From assembly GCA_016806715.1 (NCBI GenBank), contig CP060531.1:1473966-1537965 (forward strand): a stretch of DNA of 64,000 nt, in the 5' to 3' direction. This document shows positions 48,043 to 55,889 of this stretch, in pieces. The position numbers were made by a program, and so were the translations under genes. The DNA is from Thermoplasmatales archaeon. Lineage in GTDB: Archaea > Thermoplasmatota > Thermoplasmata > Thermoplasmatales > Thermoplasmataceae. Each line of letters begins with the position of its first letter. Position 1 is the first letter of the stretch. A model generated the notes under the pieces. It was not told the origin of the DNA. It saw only the letters and a list, made by a program, of their open reading frames with translations, and did no database searches.

Positions 48043-49512
<1,470 letters not shown>

Positions 49513-49762
49513 TAATTCCTGTCAAAGCGATTATTTTAAATTTGAAATTGGCGAGCCACAGTTTGCACCTTTTCACGTGTCAGAAGTGAGCTTTTATCCT
49601 CACAACTCCATATTTCCCAACCTTGGAATGTTCTGGATCATTTAGGTCATTCGACCGTGGTCACCAGAGTGCCTTGTTAGTTGGTCTTATTTCATTTTGC
49701 AACGCACGATTAGTGCGTAATTTCCTTTATAGCGGGTCGATATATAACTCTTTCGTACTCAA
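49513..49762 (-). promoter_or_regulatory. 16S rRNA promoter and leader
   Basis: On the minus strand GAAAGAG (BRE-like, 49748-49754) precedes TATA box TTATATAT (about 49739-49747). Transcription would start near 49718, at a perfect hairpin ACGCAC/GTGCGT (49702-49718), leaving a leader of about 205 bases. The mobile island begins at 49763, only about 10 bases beyond the BRE. Confidence 0.65.
49548..49568 (-). other. 16S precursor processing stem, 5' strand
   Basis: Leader RNA GTGC-AAA-CTGTGGCTCGCCAA is complementary to the trailer at 48019-48036. It shows the 16S gene has its own complete processing unit. Confidence 0.65.
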
Positions 49763-50723
49763 CTATGGCGGACATTGAGCGTTGGGAGTTCGTGTCTTCT
49801 GACATTCATTATTTTTTGTATCAATATTACGTTTTATGCAGCTTTACGAATTCGAACATTTTATCTATATACGGATCTTTTGCAAGATTATTCTTAAACA
49901 ACATGTCTTTTCGCTTCTCAGCGAGTTCGACCTTATCTTTTCTTTGTTCTTTTCATGTAATCCCATGAGTGCATCTAGGGCCATATTCCTGATCCCTCTC
50001 ACATGCCTTCCTGATATACCGATGCCCATAGATGATACTATCTCCGACGAGAATCACCCATCAATAAACCTCTGCATGGTGGATCTCAATGTAACCTCAT
50101 CTGCATAGGTGCGGTGGGGTCGGATATAACCTTTTAGTATCTCGAAACTGAATACATTCCGATCCTTCATGCATATCTTCAGTCTGTGCACTTCTACAAA
50201 CTGGCCAGAACATGATTTTACCATCCCCCTGTCGGTTCTGTAAGCCTTCAGCCCTGTGCCACAGGAAGGGTACACGGAAACGGAGGGTGTGAACACAACC
50301 TCTTTCATTTCAATTTCAGCAACAGCTTATTCAGGTTGAGATCGGATTCTATTATGATCTTCGTTATGGGCCATGCATCGTATTCAATCCCGATCTTCTT
50401 CAGTATCTCATTGATCTCCTCCTGTCCTATCCCTTTTTTGATAAGCCTGACTACATAGGGGAGTATGTCCTCAGGATCAACCACATTCTTCGCCTTGGGA
50501 TTCTTTCCGAGATATCCTATGTACTTCCTCTTGGGTTTCCCGTCCACCCATGTTTCATCCATAAGAGTACAGTAGGCATGCCCGTTCTTCATCCTTTTAT
50601 TTATTGTCTTTGTCATCCTACACCGTAATCACGGTGTGGTCTACGAATTTTTCGGCACCCTGTACAATAGCCAAGAAATTCATCATCAAGTAGGAATCTT
50701 CTAACACTCAATGTCCGCCATAG
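49763..50723 (-). mobile_element. Degenerate IS copy 1 (left arm)
   Basis: 961 bp with 17-base perfect terminal inverted repeats (CTATGGCGGACATTGAG at 49763; its complement ending at 50723), extended with mismatches to about 26. The inside holds a broken transposase on the minus strand. A hairpin ACACCGT-AATC-ACGGTGT lies at 50621-50638, just before the transposase start. Confidence 0.85.
49850..50616 (-). pseudogene. Broken transposase of IS copy 1
   Basis: Three pieces are seen on the minus strand. 50616-50305 begins MTKTINKRMKNGHAYCTLMD and has DETWVDGKPKRKYIGYLGK, the N-terminal unit of many DDE transposases. 50308-50054 carries a zinc-ribbon-like YPSCGTGLKAYRTDRG and RTYADEVTLRS, stopping at a TGA. 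The same frame then continues with a helix-turn-helix-like FSSEIVSSMGIGISGRHVRG until about 49850. No catalytic DDE core remains. Confidence 0.7.
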
Positions 50724-50766
50724 TACACACGCAAAAAAATAAGTACCCAAAAAGGTAACTGTTGGT

Positions 50767-52323
50767 ATGGGCAAAAGTGCAGGGCTAACTCTCGACAGAT
50801 TATTTTATCAGACCTTGATGAGAAAGACAGGTAAAGTCTTAACTGAGGGCCAGAGAAAGATCACTTACCGGGAACTTTTTGAAAACTCTGTTCGCCTTGG
50901 AAATAGCTTGAATTATGAAGGTCTTTCTGGTAAAAGAATTGCCGTTTTAGACTGGAATTCAATTGAATATGCGACAGCTATGTTTGGAATACCGTTTGCA
51001 GGGTCATCAATTCACCCAATTAACGTGCGTCTTCCTTTGGAACATATGCTAAGGACCATCAAAGTCGCAGGTGACGAAGCAATAATTGTGTCAAGAGATT
51101 TTCTGCCATTAGCTGAAAAGCTTGCTGAAGCACGGGTGTTCAGCAAAGAAAGAATATTCACAATGGACGGAACAAGTGATACTTTTCCCCGATTTAAGGA
51201 TCTCATAAGTAATGGTGAGAACACGTTCAATCCAACGTTCGACGAAAACACAGAGATGTCAATTCTTTTTACTTCTGGAACCACCGGAATTCCCAAGGGT
51301 GTAAGTTATTCTCATAGAAACACGGTTATTGCCATATGGGCTATCCTTACCTCTCTTTCTGCCTATCAAGGTATGTCAAGGTTAAATTCGGGTGATATTG
51401 TTTTTCCCCTCATACCATTCTATCACCTGTGGTCATGGGGGTCATTGTTTTCATCAACGATGATTGGGACACCATACGTTCTTGGAGGAAAATTCGATCC
51501 CGTAACCACATTGAAATTAATCCAATCAGAGGGGGTAACTTGGATGAATATGGTTCCAACGATGCTCTATGCACTTCTTGCAAACGATGGTGATTCTGTA
51601 CTTTCTGGCATGAAAATTCTCATTGGAGGCTCTCCGATACCAAATGGACTTGTGGAAGAAGCAAGAAAGAAGAATATCGAATTGACTTCGATTTATGGCT
51701 TTACGGATGGCCTTGTTGCATCCATAGGCACGCTCAATGAGGCTTATGGTAATATTGAAGATGAAAAAAAGTATTGGGTTTCCACAAAATTCTCCACACC
51801 ATCACCTCTGACAGAATTCAGGATAGAGAAAACCGAAAATACGCCTCCTGAGATATTTTTCAGGTCACCGTGGTTACCTGAGGGCTATGTTTCTGACGAG
51901 ATAGAAACAAAAAAAGCCTACGTGGACGGGTGGTTTAGGCCTGGTGATTCTGGTCATATCGATGAAATGGGTAATCTGAGCATTGACGATCGTGTCAAGG
52001 ATTTGATAAAAAGCGGAGGTGAATTCATCTCCAGTTCTGTACTTGAAAGTCACATATCCGAAGTGCCGGGAGTTGAACTGGTGGCAGTGGTTCCTCGTGA
52101 AGACAGTAAATGGGTGGAAAGGCCGGTGGCATTTATAAAGACCAGTAAAGATTTTGAAAGTCTCGTTCGGCAGATTAGGAACTCACTAGATGCTCTGGTA
52201 AAGGGTGGAAAACTCTCCAGTTGGTGGTTACCTGAGCAGTTTTACAGGATCGATGATATGCCGTTAACCGGTACGGGCAAAATTGACAAGAAGGAACTTA
52301 GGAAATCATTAAGAGGTGAATAA
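50767..52323 (+). CDS. Acyl-CoA synthetase / AMP-dependent ligase
   Basis: ANL-superfamily enzyme joining a carboxylic acid, probably a fatty acid, to CoA via an acyl-AMP. P-loop ILFTSGTTGIPKGVSYSH, A4-A5 region FYHLWSWGSLFSS and IYGFTDG, hinge GWFRPGDSGHIDEMGNLSIDDRVKDLIKSGGEFIS and the C-terminal lysine region LTGTGKIDKKELR are intact over 518 residues. AAAAAATAAG shortly after the IS end serves as promoter. The last eight bases overlap the dehydrogenase gene. The pair sits between two IS copies. Confidence 0.93.
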   Translation: MGKSAGLTLDRLFYQTLMRKTGKVLTEGQRKITYRELFENSVRLGNSLNYEGLSGKRIAVLDWNSIEYATAMFGIPFAGSSIHPINVRLPLEHMLRTIKVAGDEAIIVSRDFLPLAEKLAEARVFSKERIFTMDGTSDTFPRFKDLISNGENTFNPTFDENTEMSILFTSGTTGIPKGVSYSHRNTVIAIWAILTSLSAYQGMSRLNSGDIVFPLIPFYHLWSWGSLFSSTMIGTPYVLGGKFDPVTTLKLIQSEGVTWMNMVPTMLYALLANDGDSVLSGMKILIGGSPIPNGLVEEARKKNIELTSIYGFTDGLVASIGTLNEAYGNIEDEKKYWVSTKFSTPSPLTEFRIEKTENTPPEIFFRSPWLPEGYVSDEIETKKAYVDGWFRPGDSGHIDEMGNLSIDDRVKDLIKSGGEFISSSVLESHISEVPGVELVAVVPREDSKWVERPVAFIKTSKDFESLVRQIRNSLDALVKGGKLSSWWLPEQFYRIDDMPLTGTGKIDKKELRKSLRGE

Positions 52324-53587
52324 GTTGGAAGACATGCTATTGAATGAAGAAGAGAAGGAGATAAAGGCACTGGCCAGACGGATCGTGAAGGAATTACCTT
52401 CTGATCTGATCCGGAAAATTGAACGAGAGGAAGTAACCTTTCCAAGGGAGTTCATAGATTCGGTAACAAAAAACGGAGCTGTCGGACTCAGATTTCCAAG
52501 GGAATATGGTGGAAAGGGGGGAAGTTGGGTTGGTGAGGCATCCGCTGTTGAGGAAATGGGTTACCTCGGATTCACACTCAGTTGCATGTATTCTTTGGGT
52601 ACAATCGTAGGTGAGCCCATATTCCGCTATGGTACGAAGGATCAGAAAGAGAAATACCTAAAGGGAATCACATCGGGAAAGCGGTATGGTGCTGAAGCAA
52701 TCACTGAACCCTCAGGAGGTTCAGATCTCTTCGGGATGATGAAAACAAACGCAGTAAAGAGGGGAAACAAGTTTATCCTGAACGGACAAAAAAGGTTCAT
52801 TGTGGGGGGTAAAGATGCCGATTTCTTTGTAACCTACGCCATAACAGACCCTGATGCAAAATCCAGAACAAGAGGTGTCAGTGCATTCATCGTGGACAGG
52901 GATACTCCCGGTCTCAAAGTCGAGACCCTATACGGCCTTATGGGAAACAAGGGGGGAGGAACTGCCAGGATTGTATATAAGGATGCCCAGATACCTGAGG
53001 AGAACCTTATAGGAGAGCTTAATGGCGGTTACGAGGTCTTCAACAGAATGATGGTTCCTGAAAGACTTACAACTTCCGCGGGTTCCCTAGGTGTCAGTAC
53101 TGCTGCACTGAAAGTAGCTACAGATTATGCACTAAGGAGGGAGGCATTTGGCTCTAAACTCATCGAACATGAAGGGATAAACTTCAAGTTGGCCGAGAGC
53201 CTTACACTTCTTCAATCCGCCTCATCCCTCGTTTTTACAGCAGCAAAGGCAGCTGATCTCTTTGAAAAAGGGCAGACAACCCAATCCTATGTCAGAAAAC
53301 TTGTTTCAATGGCCAAACTGCACTCGACGGAAGCAATGTGGAAGATAGTTAATGACGCTATGCAAATGATGGGCGGCATTGGTTATACTACGGTATATCC
53401 TGTAGAGCGCCTGCTGAGAGATTCTAGGCTTGGTCTCATATGGACAGGAAGCAGTGAGGTTATGAAGATGATCATCCAGCATGAGCATCTTAGAGAATTT
53501 ACAAAACCAGAATACTGGGATTCACGCAGAAACATTGAAAAGGATGCCTTGGACTTCAGGTTAGAAGAGGAAAAAGTTTTCAGATAG
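52316..53587 (+). CDS. Acyl-CoA dehydrogenase
   Basis: FAD enzyme introducing the 2,3 double bond in acyl-CoA. FAD/substrate motifs: YGAEAITEPSGGSDLFGM (129-141), FILNGQKRFIVGG, RREAFGSKLIEHEGINFKLAE, and MQMMGGIGYTTVYPVERLLRDSR. The usual catalytic Glu of short/medium-chain enzymes (in YEGTS) is replaced: the sequence is IWTGSSE. Glu249 in VPERLTTSAGSLG occupies the place of the base in isovaleryl- and long-chain acyl-CoA dehydrogenases. So the enzyme looks active with that arrangement. Start GTG 52316 overlaps the ligase stop. 423 residues. Confidence 0.93.
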   Translation: MNKLEDMLLNEEEKEIKALARRIVKELPSDLIRKIEREEVTFPREFIDSVTKNGAVGLRFPREYGGKGGSWVGEASAVEEMGYLGFTLSCMYSLGTIVGEPIFRYGTKDQKEKYLKGITSGKRYGAEAITEPSGGSDLFGMMKTNAVKRGNKFILNGQKRFIVGGKDADFFVTYAITDPDAKSRTRGVSAFIVDRDTPGLKVETLYGLMGNKGGGTARIVYKDAQIPEENLIGELNGGYEVFNRMMVPERLTTSAGSLGVSTAALKVATDYALRREAFGSKLIEHEGINFKLAESLTLLQSASSLVFTAAKAADLFEKGQTTQSYVRKLVSMAKLHSTEAMWKIVNDAMQMMGGIGYTTVYPVERLLRDSRLGLIWTGSSEVMKMIIQHEHLREFTKPEYWDSRRNIEKDALDFRLEEEKVFR

Positions 53588-53632
53588 TTTAGAATTTTAC
53601 CTACAGTAAAGACCAATTACAAATGGTATTCA

Positions 53633-53640
53633 TTTTTTTT
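53633..53640 (+). terminator. Poly-T terminator next to IS copy 2
   Basis: Eight T residues directly before the left end of IS copy 2, 46 bases after the dehydrogenase stop. Confidence 0.4.
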
Positions 53641-54179
53641 CTATGGCAATGTTTTCATCCAAAGCGCAAGGAAGTTCACATCCTTTGGCTGTGGGAGGGA
53701 ATTGCCTATGGCGGACCTCAATGTAATGTCGTTGGCATATGTGCAGTGGAGGCGGATATAACCTTCGAGCATCTCCGACTGGAATATCTTCCTGTTCGTT
53801 CTGTATGCTTTCAGCCTTGAACCGCAGGAAGAGCATAAGGAAATGGAGGGTGGGAACACAGCCCCCCAATCATTTCAGCTTCAGGAATGTCTTATTCAGT
53901 TTTAGATCATTCTCTATCATGATCTTTGTTATGGGCCATGTATTGTATTCTATGCCAATCTTTTTCAGCATCTCGTTTGTCTCTTCCCGGCAAATCCCCC
54001 TCCCGAAAAGCCCTGCTACATATGGAAGTACATCCTCAGGTTCGATCTTATTCTTTGCCTTTGGGTCTTCCCTAAATATTCTACATACTTCCTAACAGGT
54101 TTCCCGTTAACCCATGTTTCGTCAACAACGGCATTGTACATACATCTATTCTTTGTCTTCTTGTTTATTGTCTTTGTCA
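53641..54179 (-). pseudogene. Broken transposase of IS copy 2
   Basis: Minus-strand remains: MTKTINKKTKNRCMYNAVVD then DETWVNGKPVRKYVEYLGK, a frameshift, then DPKAKNKIEPEDVLPYVAG...WPITKIMIENDLKLNK in another frame, and a last piece with CSSCGSRLKAYRTNR and CTYANDITLRSAI. Each part aligns with copy 1, showing the same gene with frameshifts and a deletion. Confidence 0.7.
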
Positions 54180-54287
54180 TCCTACACCGTAGATAAGGTG
54201 TAGTATACAAATCTTTGACACACTGTAAAATGTCGAGTAAATTCGATGTTGAAAACGAAATTAACCAACGCTTATTGACCTCCATAG
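53641..54287 (-). mobile_element. Degenerate IS copy 2 (right arm)
   Basis: 647 bp, homologous to copy 1 and in the same orientation. It begins CTATGGC at 53641 and ends with the complement of CTATGGAGGTCAATAAGCG at 54287. Compared with copy 1 it lacks about 300 bases of the interior, including the zinc-ribbon second half. The pre-transposase hairpin (ACACCGT-AGAT-AAGGTGT) is decayed. Confidence 0.8.
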
Positions 54288-54295
54288 GTACTCAA

Positions 54296-54725
54296 GGGGG
54301 GGGGTTGGAGCTTTTCCAGATCTTCCTTGCCTTATTCTGTGATTATTACCTACGCTCTTCTTCCCAAATATCCTCATGGTAAATCTCCCATTGCTGAACT
54401 CCCTGTTATACGAAGGCCATATCTGATATGCTCCAAATCTCATTTTAAATTATCACGAACCTCTTGATGATGGCAAATACTTTTCCTCTTGCACAAGTCT
54501 GACACATGTTTGTTTTCACCACTGTCCTGCTATAACAGCATGGGTAGGGGCGTTAGAGAAAGCTTCCAGGGCTAGTTTGTGGAGAACAATTGTATTTCGG
54601 GAAAGAATTATGTCAGGAAACACCGCAGAAAGGAGAGGAGAATCATTAGACCATCTGATAATCAGATTTTTTGGATAGTTGTGACAAAATGCCAAATTTT
54701 TTATTTGAAATAGACTACATTTCGT
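54296..54725. other. Gene-poor interval right of the composite element
   Basis: Begins with a run of G residues (54296-54304). It has short frames on both strands (for example minus 54443-54264 and plus 54633-54680) without family resemblance. These may be scraps of older insertions. No RNA gene is seen. Confidence 0.4.
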
Positions 54726-54893
54726 GTGGTAGTAGAAAAAATTTGTGGGATCTGCAACGAAACATTCCTATGCAACTCTAATGGTCCATGCTGGTGTTCA
54801 GCCTTCCGAGTAAGTAGGGAGAAGCTGGAGTTTCTGTCTATTATGGCACCGGATTGTGTGTGCAGCTCGTGTTTAGGGGAATATACCTCATAA
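54726..54893 (+). CDS. Cysteine-rich CWC-like small protein (55 aa)
   Basis: GTG 54726 opens a 55-codon frame: KICGICNETFLCNSNGPCWC followed by a helix REKLEFLSIMAPDCVCSSCLGEY and a stop at 54891. The pattern C..C...F.C.....CWC, then C.C..CL matches the cysteine-rich CWC family of small, probably zinc-binding proteins of unknown role. Seven of the cysteines lie in CxxC-like pairs. TATTTGAAATAGAC lies about 22 bases upstream. It is isolated between two mobile elements. Confidence 0.72.
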   Translation: MVVEKICGICNETFLCNSNGPCWCSAFRVSREKLEFLSIMAPDCVCSSCLGEYTS

Positions 54894-54907
54894 AGTGTTA
54901 CAATTCC

Positions 54908-55889
54908 TGAACTGTGTTGCATAACCCATGCAATAATTCTTCTTGAAAATATGATGGGTGTTGTCTGTGCAAAACAACAACCCAATTGTTAATGGAAAGA
55001 GAGATAATAAAAGGATATGGTCCCTCTACAACGAATCGCTTGTCAGACGCATGAAGGATATCCTTGATCTCAGGGATATAAGGAATTACAGGCATGATCT
55101 CGGGAAACAGAACAGGAAGAAGAACGGAAGGCCGTATATTATTCCGGATAAGATCATTGAGATCCTGGCACGAATAAGGGCAGTGTTCAACGCTTCCTTC
55201 AGGTCACTGGAATCTTACATGAGGATATTCCAGGAGATTCTCGGAATACCGGGAATCTCTTACTCATCCATATTTCGAAGAATAAGAAAGATCAAAGTGC
55301 CTGAGATTATGAATCCATCCTCCTCCGTTGCAGTAGATTCAACAGGCTTCAAGACAACAATTAGGGGAGACTGGCTGTCCAACAAATGGGCAAAGAAGAG
55401 GAAGGGGTGGATCAAGCTTCATGTCTCTGCAGACACAGAAAGGATCATGGCATCGCGCATCTCCATCACAATGGAGCACAGCCATGATGCCACTCAATTC
55501 ACCAGGCTCATAACTGGATCAGAACAGAGGGTATTTGCAGACAAGGCATATGATTCCAGGAAGATATTCAATATTTTGAGGAATAATGGCAGCGAGGCCA
55601 TTATTCCCCTGAGAAAGAACTTCAGCACATTATCAAGAACATCTCCCCTGAGAGGAAAGACAGCAAGGGAGATCAGGAAGCTGGGAGAGGATCAGTGGAA
55701 AAATATCCATGAATATGGAAGGAGATGGACTGTGGAGATATATTTCTCGGGTCTCAAGAGAGTAATGGGCGAGATAATAAGGGCAAGAAGAACGGATTAC
55801 ATGATCCAGGAAGTGGGACTGAAGGTGCTCTATTACAACATGATGAGGGAAAATACAAGGACATATGGGTAGTTATGCAACACAGTTCA
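54908..55889 (+). mobile_element. Complete IS5-family element
   Basis: 982 bp with perfect 18-base terminal inverted repeats TGAACTGTGTTGCATAAC (54908-54925; complement at 55872-55889). A 5-base direct repeat ATTCC lies on both sides (54903-54907 and 55890-55894). One intact transposase fills the element, whose stop touches the right repeat. Confidence 0.92.
54958..55872 (+). CDS. IS5-family DDE transposase
   Basis: The 304-residue enzyme has a basic helix-rich N-terminus (RKKNGRPYIIPDKIIEILARIR; RSLESYMRIFQEILGIPGISYSSIFRR) and the DDE core: first Asp in SSVAVDSTGFKTTIRGDW, second in RVFADKAYDSRKIF, and the Glu in RRWTVEIYFSGLKRVMGEIIRARR. All three catalytic residues are present and the frame is intact, so it may be active. 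The start is GTG 54958. Confidence 0.92.
   Translation: MLSVQNNNPIVNGKRDNKRIWSLYNESLVRRMKDILDLRDIRNYRHDLGKQNRKKNGRPYIIPDKIIEILARIRAVFNASFRSLESYMRIFQEILGIPGISYSSIFRRIRKIKVPEIMNPSSSVAVDSTGFKTTIRGDWLSNKWAKKRKGWIKLHVSADTERIMASRISITMEHSHDATQFTRLITGSEQRVFADKAYDSRKIFNILRNNGSEAIIPLRKNFSTLSRTSPLRGKTAREIRKLGEDQWKNIHEYGRRWTVEIYFSGLKRVMGEIIRARRTDYMIQEVGLKVLYYNMMRENTRTYG

Follow-up and report, generated by a model that had tools for sequence, protein, structure and literature searches.

The block described here lies in the complete 1.96-Mb genome of a Thermoplasmatales archaeon (G000), within a stretch of 64,000 nucleotides that was analysed as a whole and is referred to below as the window. It comprises two IS copies, two protein-coding genes between them, and a short repeat outside both copies, and it is positioned directly upstream of the promoter of the 16S rRNA gene. 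The features are as follows.

48043-49512, minus strand: 16S rRNA gene, targeted at its promoter (Rfam RF01959, 1513 bits)
49740-49754, minus strand: intact 16S core promoter, GAAA (BRE, 49751-49754) plus TTATATAT (TATA, 49740-49747), sequence conserved in congeners G001 and G003
49755-49762: left target duplication GTACTCAA; first five bases, GTACT, conserved here in IS-free G001
49763-50723, minus strand: IS copy 1, internally deleted, with both terminal inverted repeats (TIRs; 3' end left, 5' end right), aligned with full-length elements
49928-50308, minus strand: remnant of ORFB (DDE transposase) of copy 1, catalytic part deleted (profile A1, E=2.7e-34, one stop)
50305-50616, minus strand: ORFA of copy 1, 103 aa, intact (relatives in 33 genomes and 16 genera, best 73% identity)
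50724-50731: TACACACG, probable half of the original (donor) target duplication of copy 1, exactly filling the gap from the IS end to the ligase promoter
50732-50747, plus strand: predicted ligase promoter CAAAAAAATAAGTACC (best of 42 offsets, p=0.0034)
50767-52323, plus strand: AMP-binding acyl-CoA ligase, 518 aa, intact, cargo (Pfam PF00501, E=1.4e-51; 78% identity to G101)
52316-53587, plus strand: acyl-CoA dehydrogenase (ACAD) family protein, 423 aa, cargo (Pfam PF00441, PF02770 and PF02771; 90% identity to G101)
53641-54287, minus strand: IS copy 2, with an internal deletion and a frameshift in ORFA; its right (5') TIR is certain and its left end probable
54288-54295: right target duplication GTACTCAA
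54908-55889, plus strand: neighbouring IS5-like element with a 9-bp duplication (NCBIfam transpos_IS5_2, 195 bits; ends and duplication)

IS copies, outer repeat and cargo

Alignment bears out the view of the initial annotation that two related IS copies surround the ligase/ACAD pair, with about 72% identity between them over 504 bp. The ORFA sequences of the two copies differ with a dN/dS of about 0.2, and they are therefore taken as separate members of one family that diverged under selection before they decayed. Full-length relatives measure 2.1-2.3 kb and encode two proteins, an ORFA product of about 106 aa and an ORFB product of 530-570 aa, so that both copies in the window are internally deleted; compared with these, copy 1 retains ORFA and a stub of ORFB. 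Both transposases are broken, as had been proposed: ORFB of copy 1 lacks its catalytic part and carries a stop, and ORFA of copy 2 is frameshifted. The CTATGG outer ends described earlier are present as inverted ends, but the TIR extends over approximately 22-26 bp rather than six. The two TIRs of copy 1 match each other at 23 of 26 positions, and the right end of copy 2 matches the left end of copy 1 at 19 of 26. The inner end of copy 2 is probably at 53641, judged from about 10 bp that resemble the 3' ends of other members (CTATGGCAAT). No further copy of the family was found in the rest of the genome.

Directly outside the two copies stands the identical 8-base repeat GTACTCAA, which occurs on the plus strand of the window only at these two places; exact 8-mer agreement of two chosen edges is expected by chance at a rate of about 1.7e-5 per pair. 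The inner flanks of the IS copies (TACACACG and TTTTTTTT) do not match it, again as first reported. The arrangement is thus that of a composite transposon: two related ISs around cargo unrelated to transposition, with a target duplication of the length typical of the family outside the pair and absent from its inner edges.

The cargo genes overlap by 8 bp, and the ligase ATG is preceded at 21 nt by AATAAGTA, which recurs at the same spacing upstream of the ligase gene of G101. We take G101 to be T. volcanium, G097 to be T. acidophilum, and G059 and G060 to be Ferroplasma. The high identity to T. volcanium listed above compares with 71% (ACAD) and 49% (ligase) to congeners of the window's organism, and in trees both cargo proteins group with T. 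volcanium (support 100/99 and 100/100), apart from the versions of the congeners. Congeners G001 and G002 carry an orthologous ligase/ACAD pair between genes read from their sequences as agmatinase and ribosomal protein L10e, and G003 has an ACAD gene at this site, which in G000 consists of about 270 bp of intergenic DNA without the pair. The proposal that the pair was imported is upheld by the trees, the identities and the empty native site, and on these comparative data the cargo is foreign, with an affinity to T. volcanium and not to the congeners. No congener was found that keeps the pair at the 16S locus without IS copies; the congeners have their different, orthologous pair at the other locus. 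Cargo and T. volcanium genes differ with a dN/dS below 0.1, indicating that the cargo is under selection.

Canonical acyl-CoA dehydrogenases carry a catalytic Glu at a position where the cargo ACAD has Thr (IWTGSSE), in place of the Glu of its own paralogs in G000 (YEGT/WEGT). All examined relatives of the cargo ACAD have this Thr, in WTGSSE, and none has the canonical Glu. The role in fatty-acid oxidation originally assigned to the pair is not supported, given this replacement and the best NCBIfam models for the cargo ACAD, which score far below cut-off; the enzyme may catalyse a reaction other than ordinary dehydrogenation.

A two-ORF IS family at archaeal promoters

Of the 117 genomes of the order, 33 have relatives of the ORFA of copy 1; a search of plasmids for relatives of the IS returned none. 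The CTATGG ends of the family span 22-26 bp. ORFB matches Pfam MULE below the model cut-off (E=4.6e-5) and Transposase_mut marginally above it (21.7 against 21). Among NCBIfam models it falls well short of IS256 (E=7.6e-10, 38 bits against a cut-off of 150 bits) and ISH6 (24 bits against 240 bits), and no ISKra4 or ISLre2 model matched. Its profile matches mark ORFB as a predicted Mutator-like DDE transposase, below the cut-offs of the named IS families. A duplication length other than eight bases, offered by the initial annotation as a ground for refutation, was not found: exact 8-bp duplications recur at eight other loci (L043, L045, L046, L050, L052, L061, L067, and L075; 0.4 matches per offset in a shifted-offset control). 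The duplicated 8-mers share no common consensus. At L067 (1744-2987) the ORFB of a family member is interrupted by a 347-aa surface-protein-like gene with a 35-bp imperfect direct repeat (89%) on both sides.

What the insertions do share lies next to the duplication. In nine of nine independent full insertions the 8-bp duplication abuts a BRE/TATA element (GAAAnnnTTATATA) on one side, and the promoter motif read from the first base after the duplication gives a leave-one-out combined p of 3.7e-12 for the nine; L045 and L061 match it weakly, and the best fit in L075 is shifted outward by one base. Among 48 held-out ends, 23 reach p<.05 (about 2.4 expected) and 16 reach p<.01, with binomial probabilities of 1e-17 and 1e-20 that are approximate because a few of these ends are near-duplicates or doubtful. 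An untrained TATA consensus has its sole peak 14 bp away from the IS end, and the adjoining genes have start codons concentrated at a distance of 43-46 bp, as expected for leaderless archaeal genes. The distance to the promoter is thus fixed across independent insertions, and by this evidence the Mutator-like family is one that inserts base-exactly upstream of predicted archaeal promoters. A preference for rRNA or tRNA genes was considered and dropped: Rfam scans gave only two 16S cases (2 of 26 promoter-side ends examined), and the preference is therefore for promoters in general. L045 (737-5049 and beyond) and L061 are tandem arrays of different family members at one promoter with the same 8-mer between them, as expected if each newcomer inserts between the promoter and the older element.

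The locus in the window conforms to this pattern. The block entered at the 8 bp that directly precede the BRE/TATA of the 16S promoter, the normal target of the family, and the habit of inserting immediately upstream of promoters accounts for the base-exact position of the block before an rRNA promoter. The 16S promoter is the top-scoring offset for the promoter motif (p<0.001), and the site read toward the 16S gene is TTGAGTAC followed by GAAAGAGTTATATATC, the duplication touching BRE and TATA. In G090, from another genus, the family member of L067 occupies the identical base position at the 16S promoter (CCTACCAC followed by GAAATCGTTAAATACG), with a duplication, GTGGTAGG, unrelated to GTACTCAA.

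The empty site proposed as a check was recovered in part. The region upstream of the 16S gene is IS-free in G001, where it reads CTCTTTCGTACTTTTGG; agreement with the window covers the 16S gene and the adjacent upstream DNA up to base five of the duplication (CTCTTTCGTACT), past which the G001 sequence runs on with no IS. On the right side the strict test fails because the sequence of the congeners there is unrelated: a search of the congeners for the right flank found no homologous sequence beyond the end of the IS5-like element, and synteny breaks at this point. Gene order upstream of the 16S gene (window 49755-54908) differs in every congener checked, making this a recurrent rearrangement point, with a 707-aa metG-like gene in G001 and an aldo/keto reductase-like gene in G003.

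Origin of the block

The 4.5-kb block is probably a composite transposon of this promoter-targeted, two-ORF, Mutator-like archaeal IS family. The outer duplication carries less weight here than it otherwise might, because a promoter that is hit repeatedly yields the same 8-mer each time, and the case for transposition as a unit therefore rests also on the inner edge of copy 1. There, TACACACG separates the IS end from the ligase's own promoter, CAAAAAAATAAGTACC, by 8 bp and differs from GTACTCAA. A single insertion event cannot have left two 8-mers that differ and that each precede a promoter. On the simplest reading, the inner edge of copy 1 would date back to an insertion in the donor, and the outer edge would stem from the composite's own transposition. 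A second composite-like block, at L075 (1041-5802) in a draft genome, has the outer duplication TCAGGCAG and 429 bp of identical IS 5' parts on both sides of two surface-protein-like genes, and its inner IS end likewise adjoins the promoter of the cargo, though more weakly (p=0.028).

The donor would have been a relative of the T. volcanium lineage, only approximated by G101; in it a family member would have inserted 8 bp upstream of the promoter of the ligase-ACAD operon, becoming copy 1 with TACACACG as its duplication, while a different and already diverged member downstream of the operon would have supplied copy 2. Transposase acting on the two outer ends would then have moved everything between them into G000 and duplicated GTACTCAA, an event well supported by the outer-only duplication, the family TIRs, the inner edge of copy 1 and the foreign cargo, in line with the single transposition of the whole block first suggested. 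Under such a one-step insertion the allele without the block should read CTCTTTCGTACTCAAGGGGGGG. Afterwards both ISs would have decayed and the native pair would have been lost at its own site. Since the inner copy lies before the promoter that belongs to the cargo, what moves is an entire transcription unit, and the promoter at the target stays undamaged.

The recurrence of one 8-mer in tandem arrays at a single promoter (L045, L061) and the divergence of copies 1 and 2 would also fit two independent insertions at the 16S promoter, copy 2 followed by copy 1, each with GTACTCAA as its duplication, and the cargo arriving between them separately. Such a history is unlikely, as it predicts GTACTCAA at the right flank of copy 1, where TACACACG is found with the ligase promoter at the exact offset after it, and the cargo has no transposon ends of its own. 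Reading this flank as a decayed GTACTCAA was rejected as weak, a one-base shift yielding a match of only 6 of 8, and the ligase promoter explains it better. That the inner end of copy 1 obeys the promoter rule with a different 8-mer favours unit transposition over independent insertions. Somewhat more doubtful still is homologous recombination between an IS resident at the 16S promoter and an IS on a cargo-bearing circle, which would generate direct repeats with the resident's duplication outside; the direct orientation of the copies, the outer-only duplication and the different neighbours at the two ends of copy 1 agree with it, but about 74% identity is poor for recombination, the two TIRs of copy 1 match each other best, and a simple circle requires TACACACG at the left flank of copy 2, where it is absent. 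The least probable alternative concerns the promoter position itself, which might reflect survival rather than targeting if other insertions were lethal or removed and AT-rich DNA were generally preferred; on general grounds an insertion upstream of a promoter is likely to be harmless, and these genomes are compact, but selection cannot give single-base precision, the promoter signal falling away within 1-3 bp of offset 0, and a third IS family, present in G060 and making 7-bp duplications, has no promoter signal (5 insertions).

Composite transposition remains the preferred account. The IS5-like family of the neighbouring element (54958-55872) was chosen as a negative control and turned out positive for the same geometry: the motif of the Mutator-like family peaks exactly at offset 9, with p<.05 at 13 of 20 insertions (binomial 7e-13). 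Other IS5-like copies, including L249 and L263, have a 9-bp duplication flush upstream of BRE/TATA. That two unrelated transposases share the position points to a mark supplied by the host, such as the TFB/TBP complex, beside which the transposase would dock; alternatively, both families may recognise the BRE/TATA DNA sequence itself. We lean slightly toward the view that at least two unrelated IS families use the TFB/TBP-bound promoter of the Thermoplasmatales as a common mark, each with its duplication flush against BRE. Pairs would then bracket whole transcription units, and composites would carry genes ready for expression to other promoters, which stay unbroken.

Relation to known systems

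Bacterial Mutator-like elements of the TnGBS/ISLre2 (p-MULT 3) and ISKra4 (p-MULT 4) groups insert upstream of promoters (Guerillot et al., 2014; PMC3942029), and they share with the window's family a fixed distance to the promoter; their Mutator-like DDE transposase has a predicted counterpart in its ORFB. Their target sites lie 15-17 bp before the -35 box of sigma-A promoters, whereas the family described here is archaeal, has two ORFs, and places its 8-bp duplication flush against BRE/TATA. For the archaeal Mutator-like ISH6 family (p-MULT 2) it has been speculated that an AT-rich target favours promoters (PMC3942029); in ISH6 the duplication itself is AT-rich (AANATNTT, PMC3942029), whereas in the window's family the motif lies outside the duplicated 8-mers. 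Promoter-bound initiation factors as a landing mark are cited in the same paper for the yeast retrotransposon Ty3. TBP and TFB are archaeal counterparts of such factors, although Ty3 uses a retroelement integrase and factor contact in the archaeal case is putative.

In classical composite transposons two directly oriented ISs bracket the cargo and the duplication stands only outside. The block in the window has the same direct pair and outer-only duplication; it differs in that its arms are defective and diverged (72-74% identity, against near-identical arms in young composites) and in that the inner copy lies exactly upstream of the cargo's promoter. Within the open literature no report of archaeal promoter-targeted transposition was found, and no paper linking 'composite transposon' with Thermoplasmatales.

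Promoter-directed transposition has so far been known from bacterial sigma-A promoters and yeast Ty3 and was a guess for archaea (PMC3942029). With base-exact insertion now seen in archaea for two transposase families that are unrelated, the host initiation complex becomes a common target open to testing. Such insertion would also offer archaeal composites a simple route for collecting intact operons. The present block in addition documents how a metabolic gene pair gained by horizontal transfer has taken the place of the native pair.
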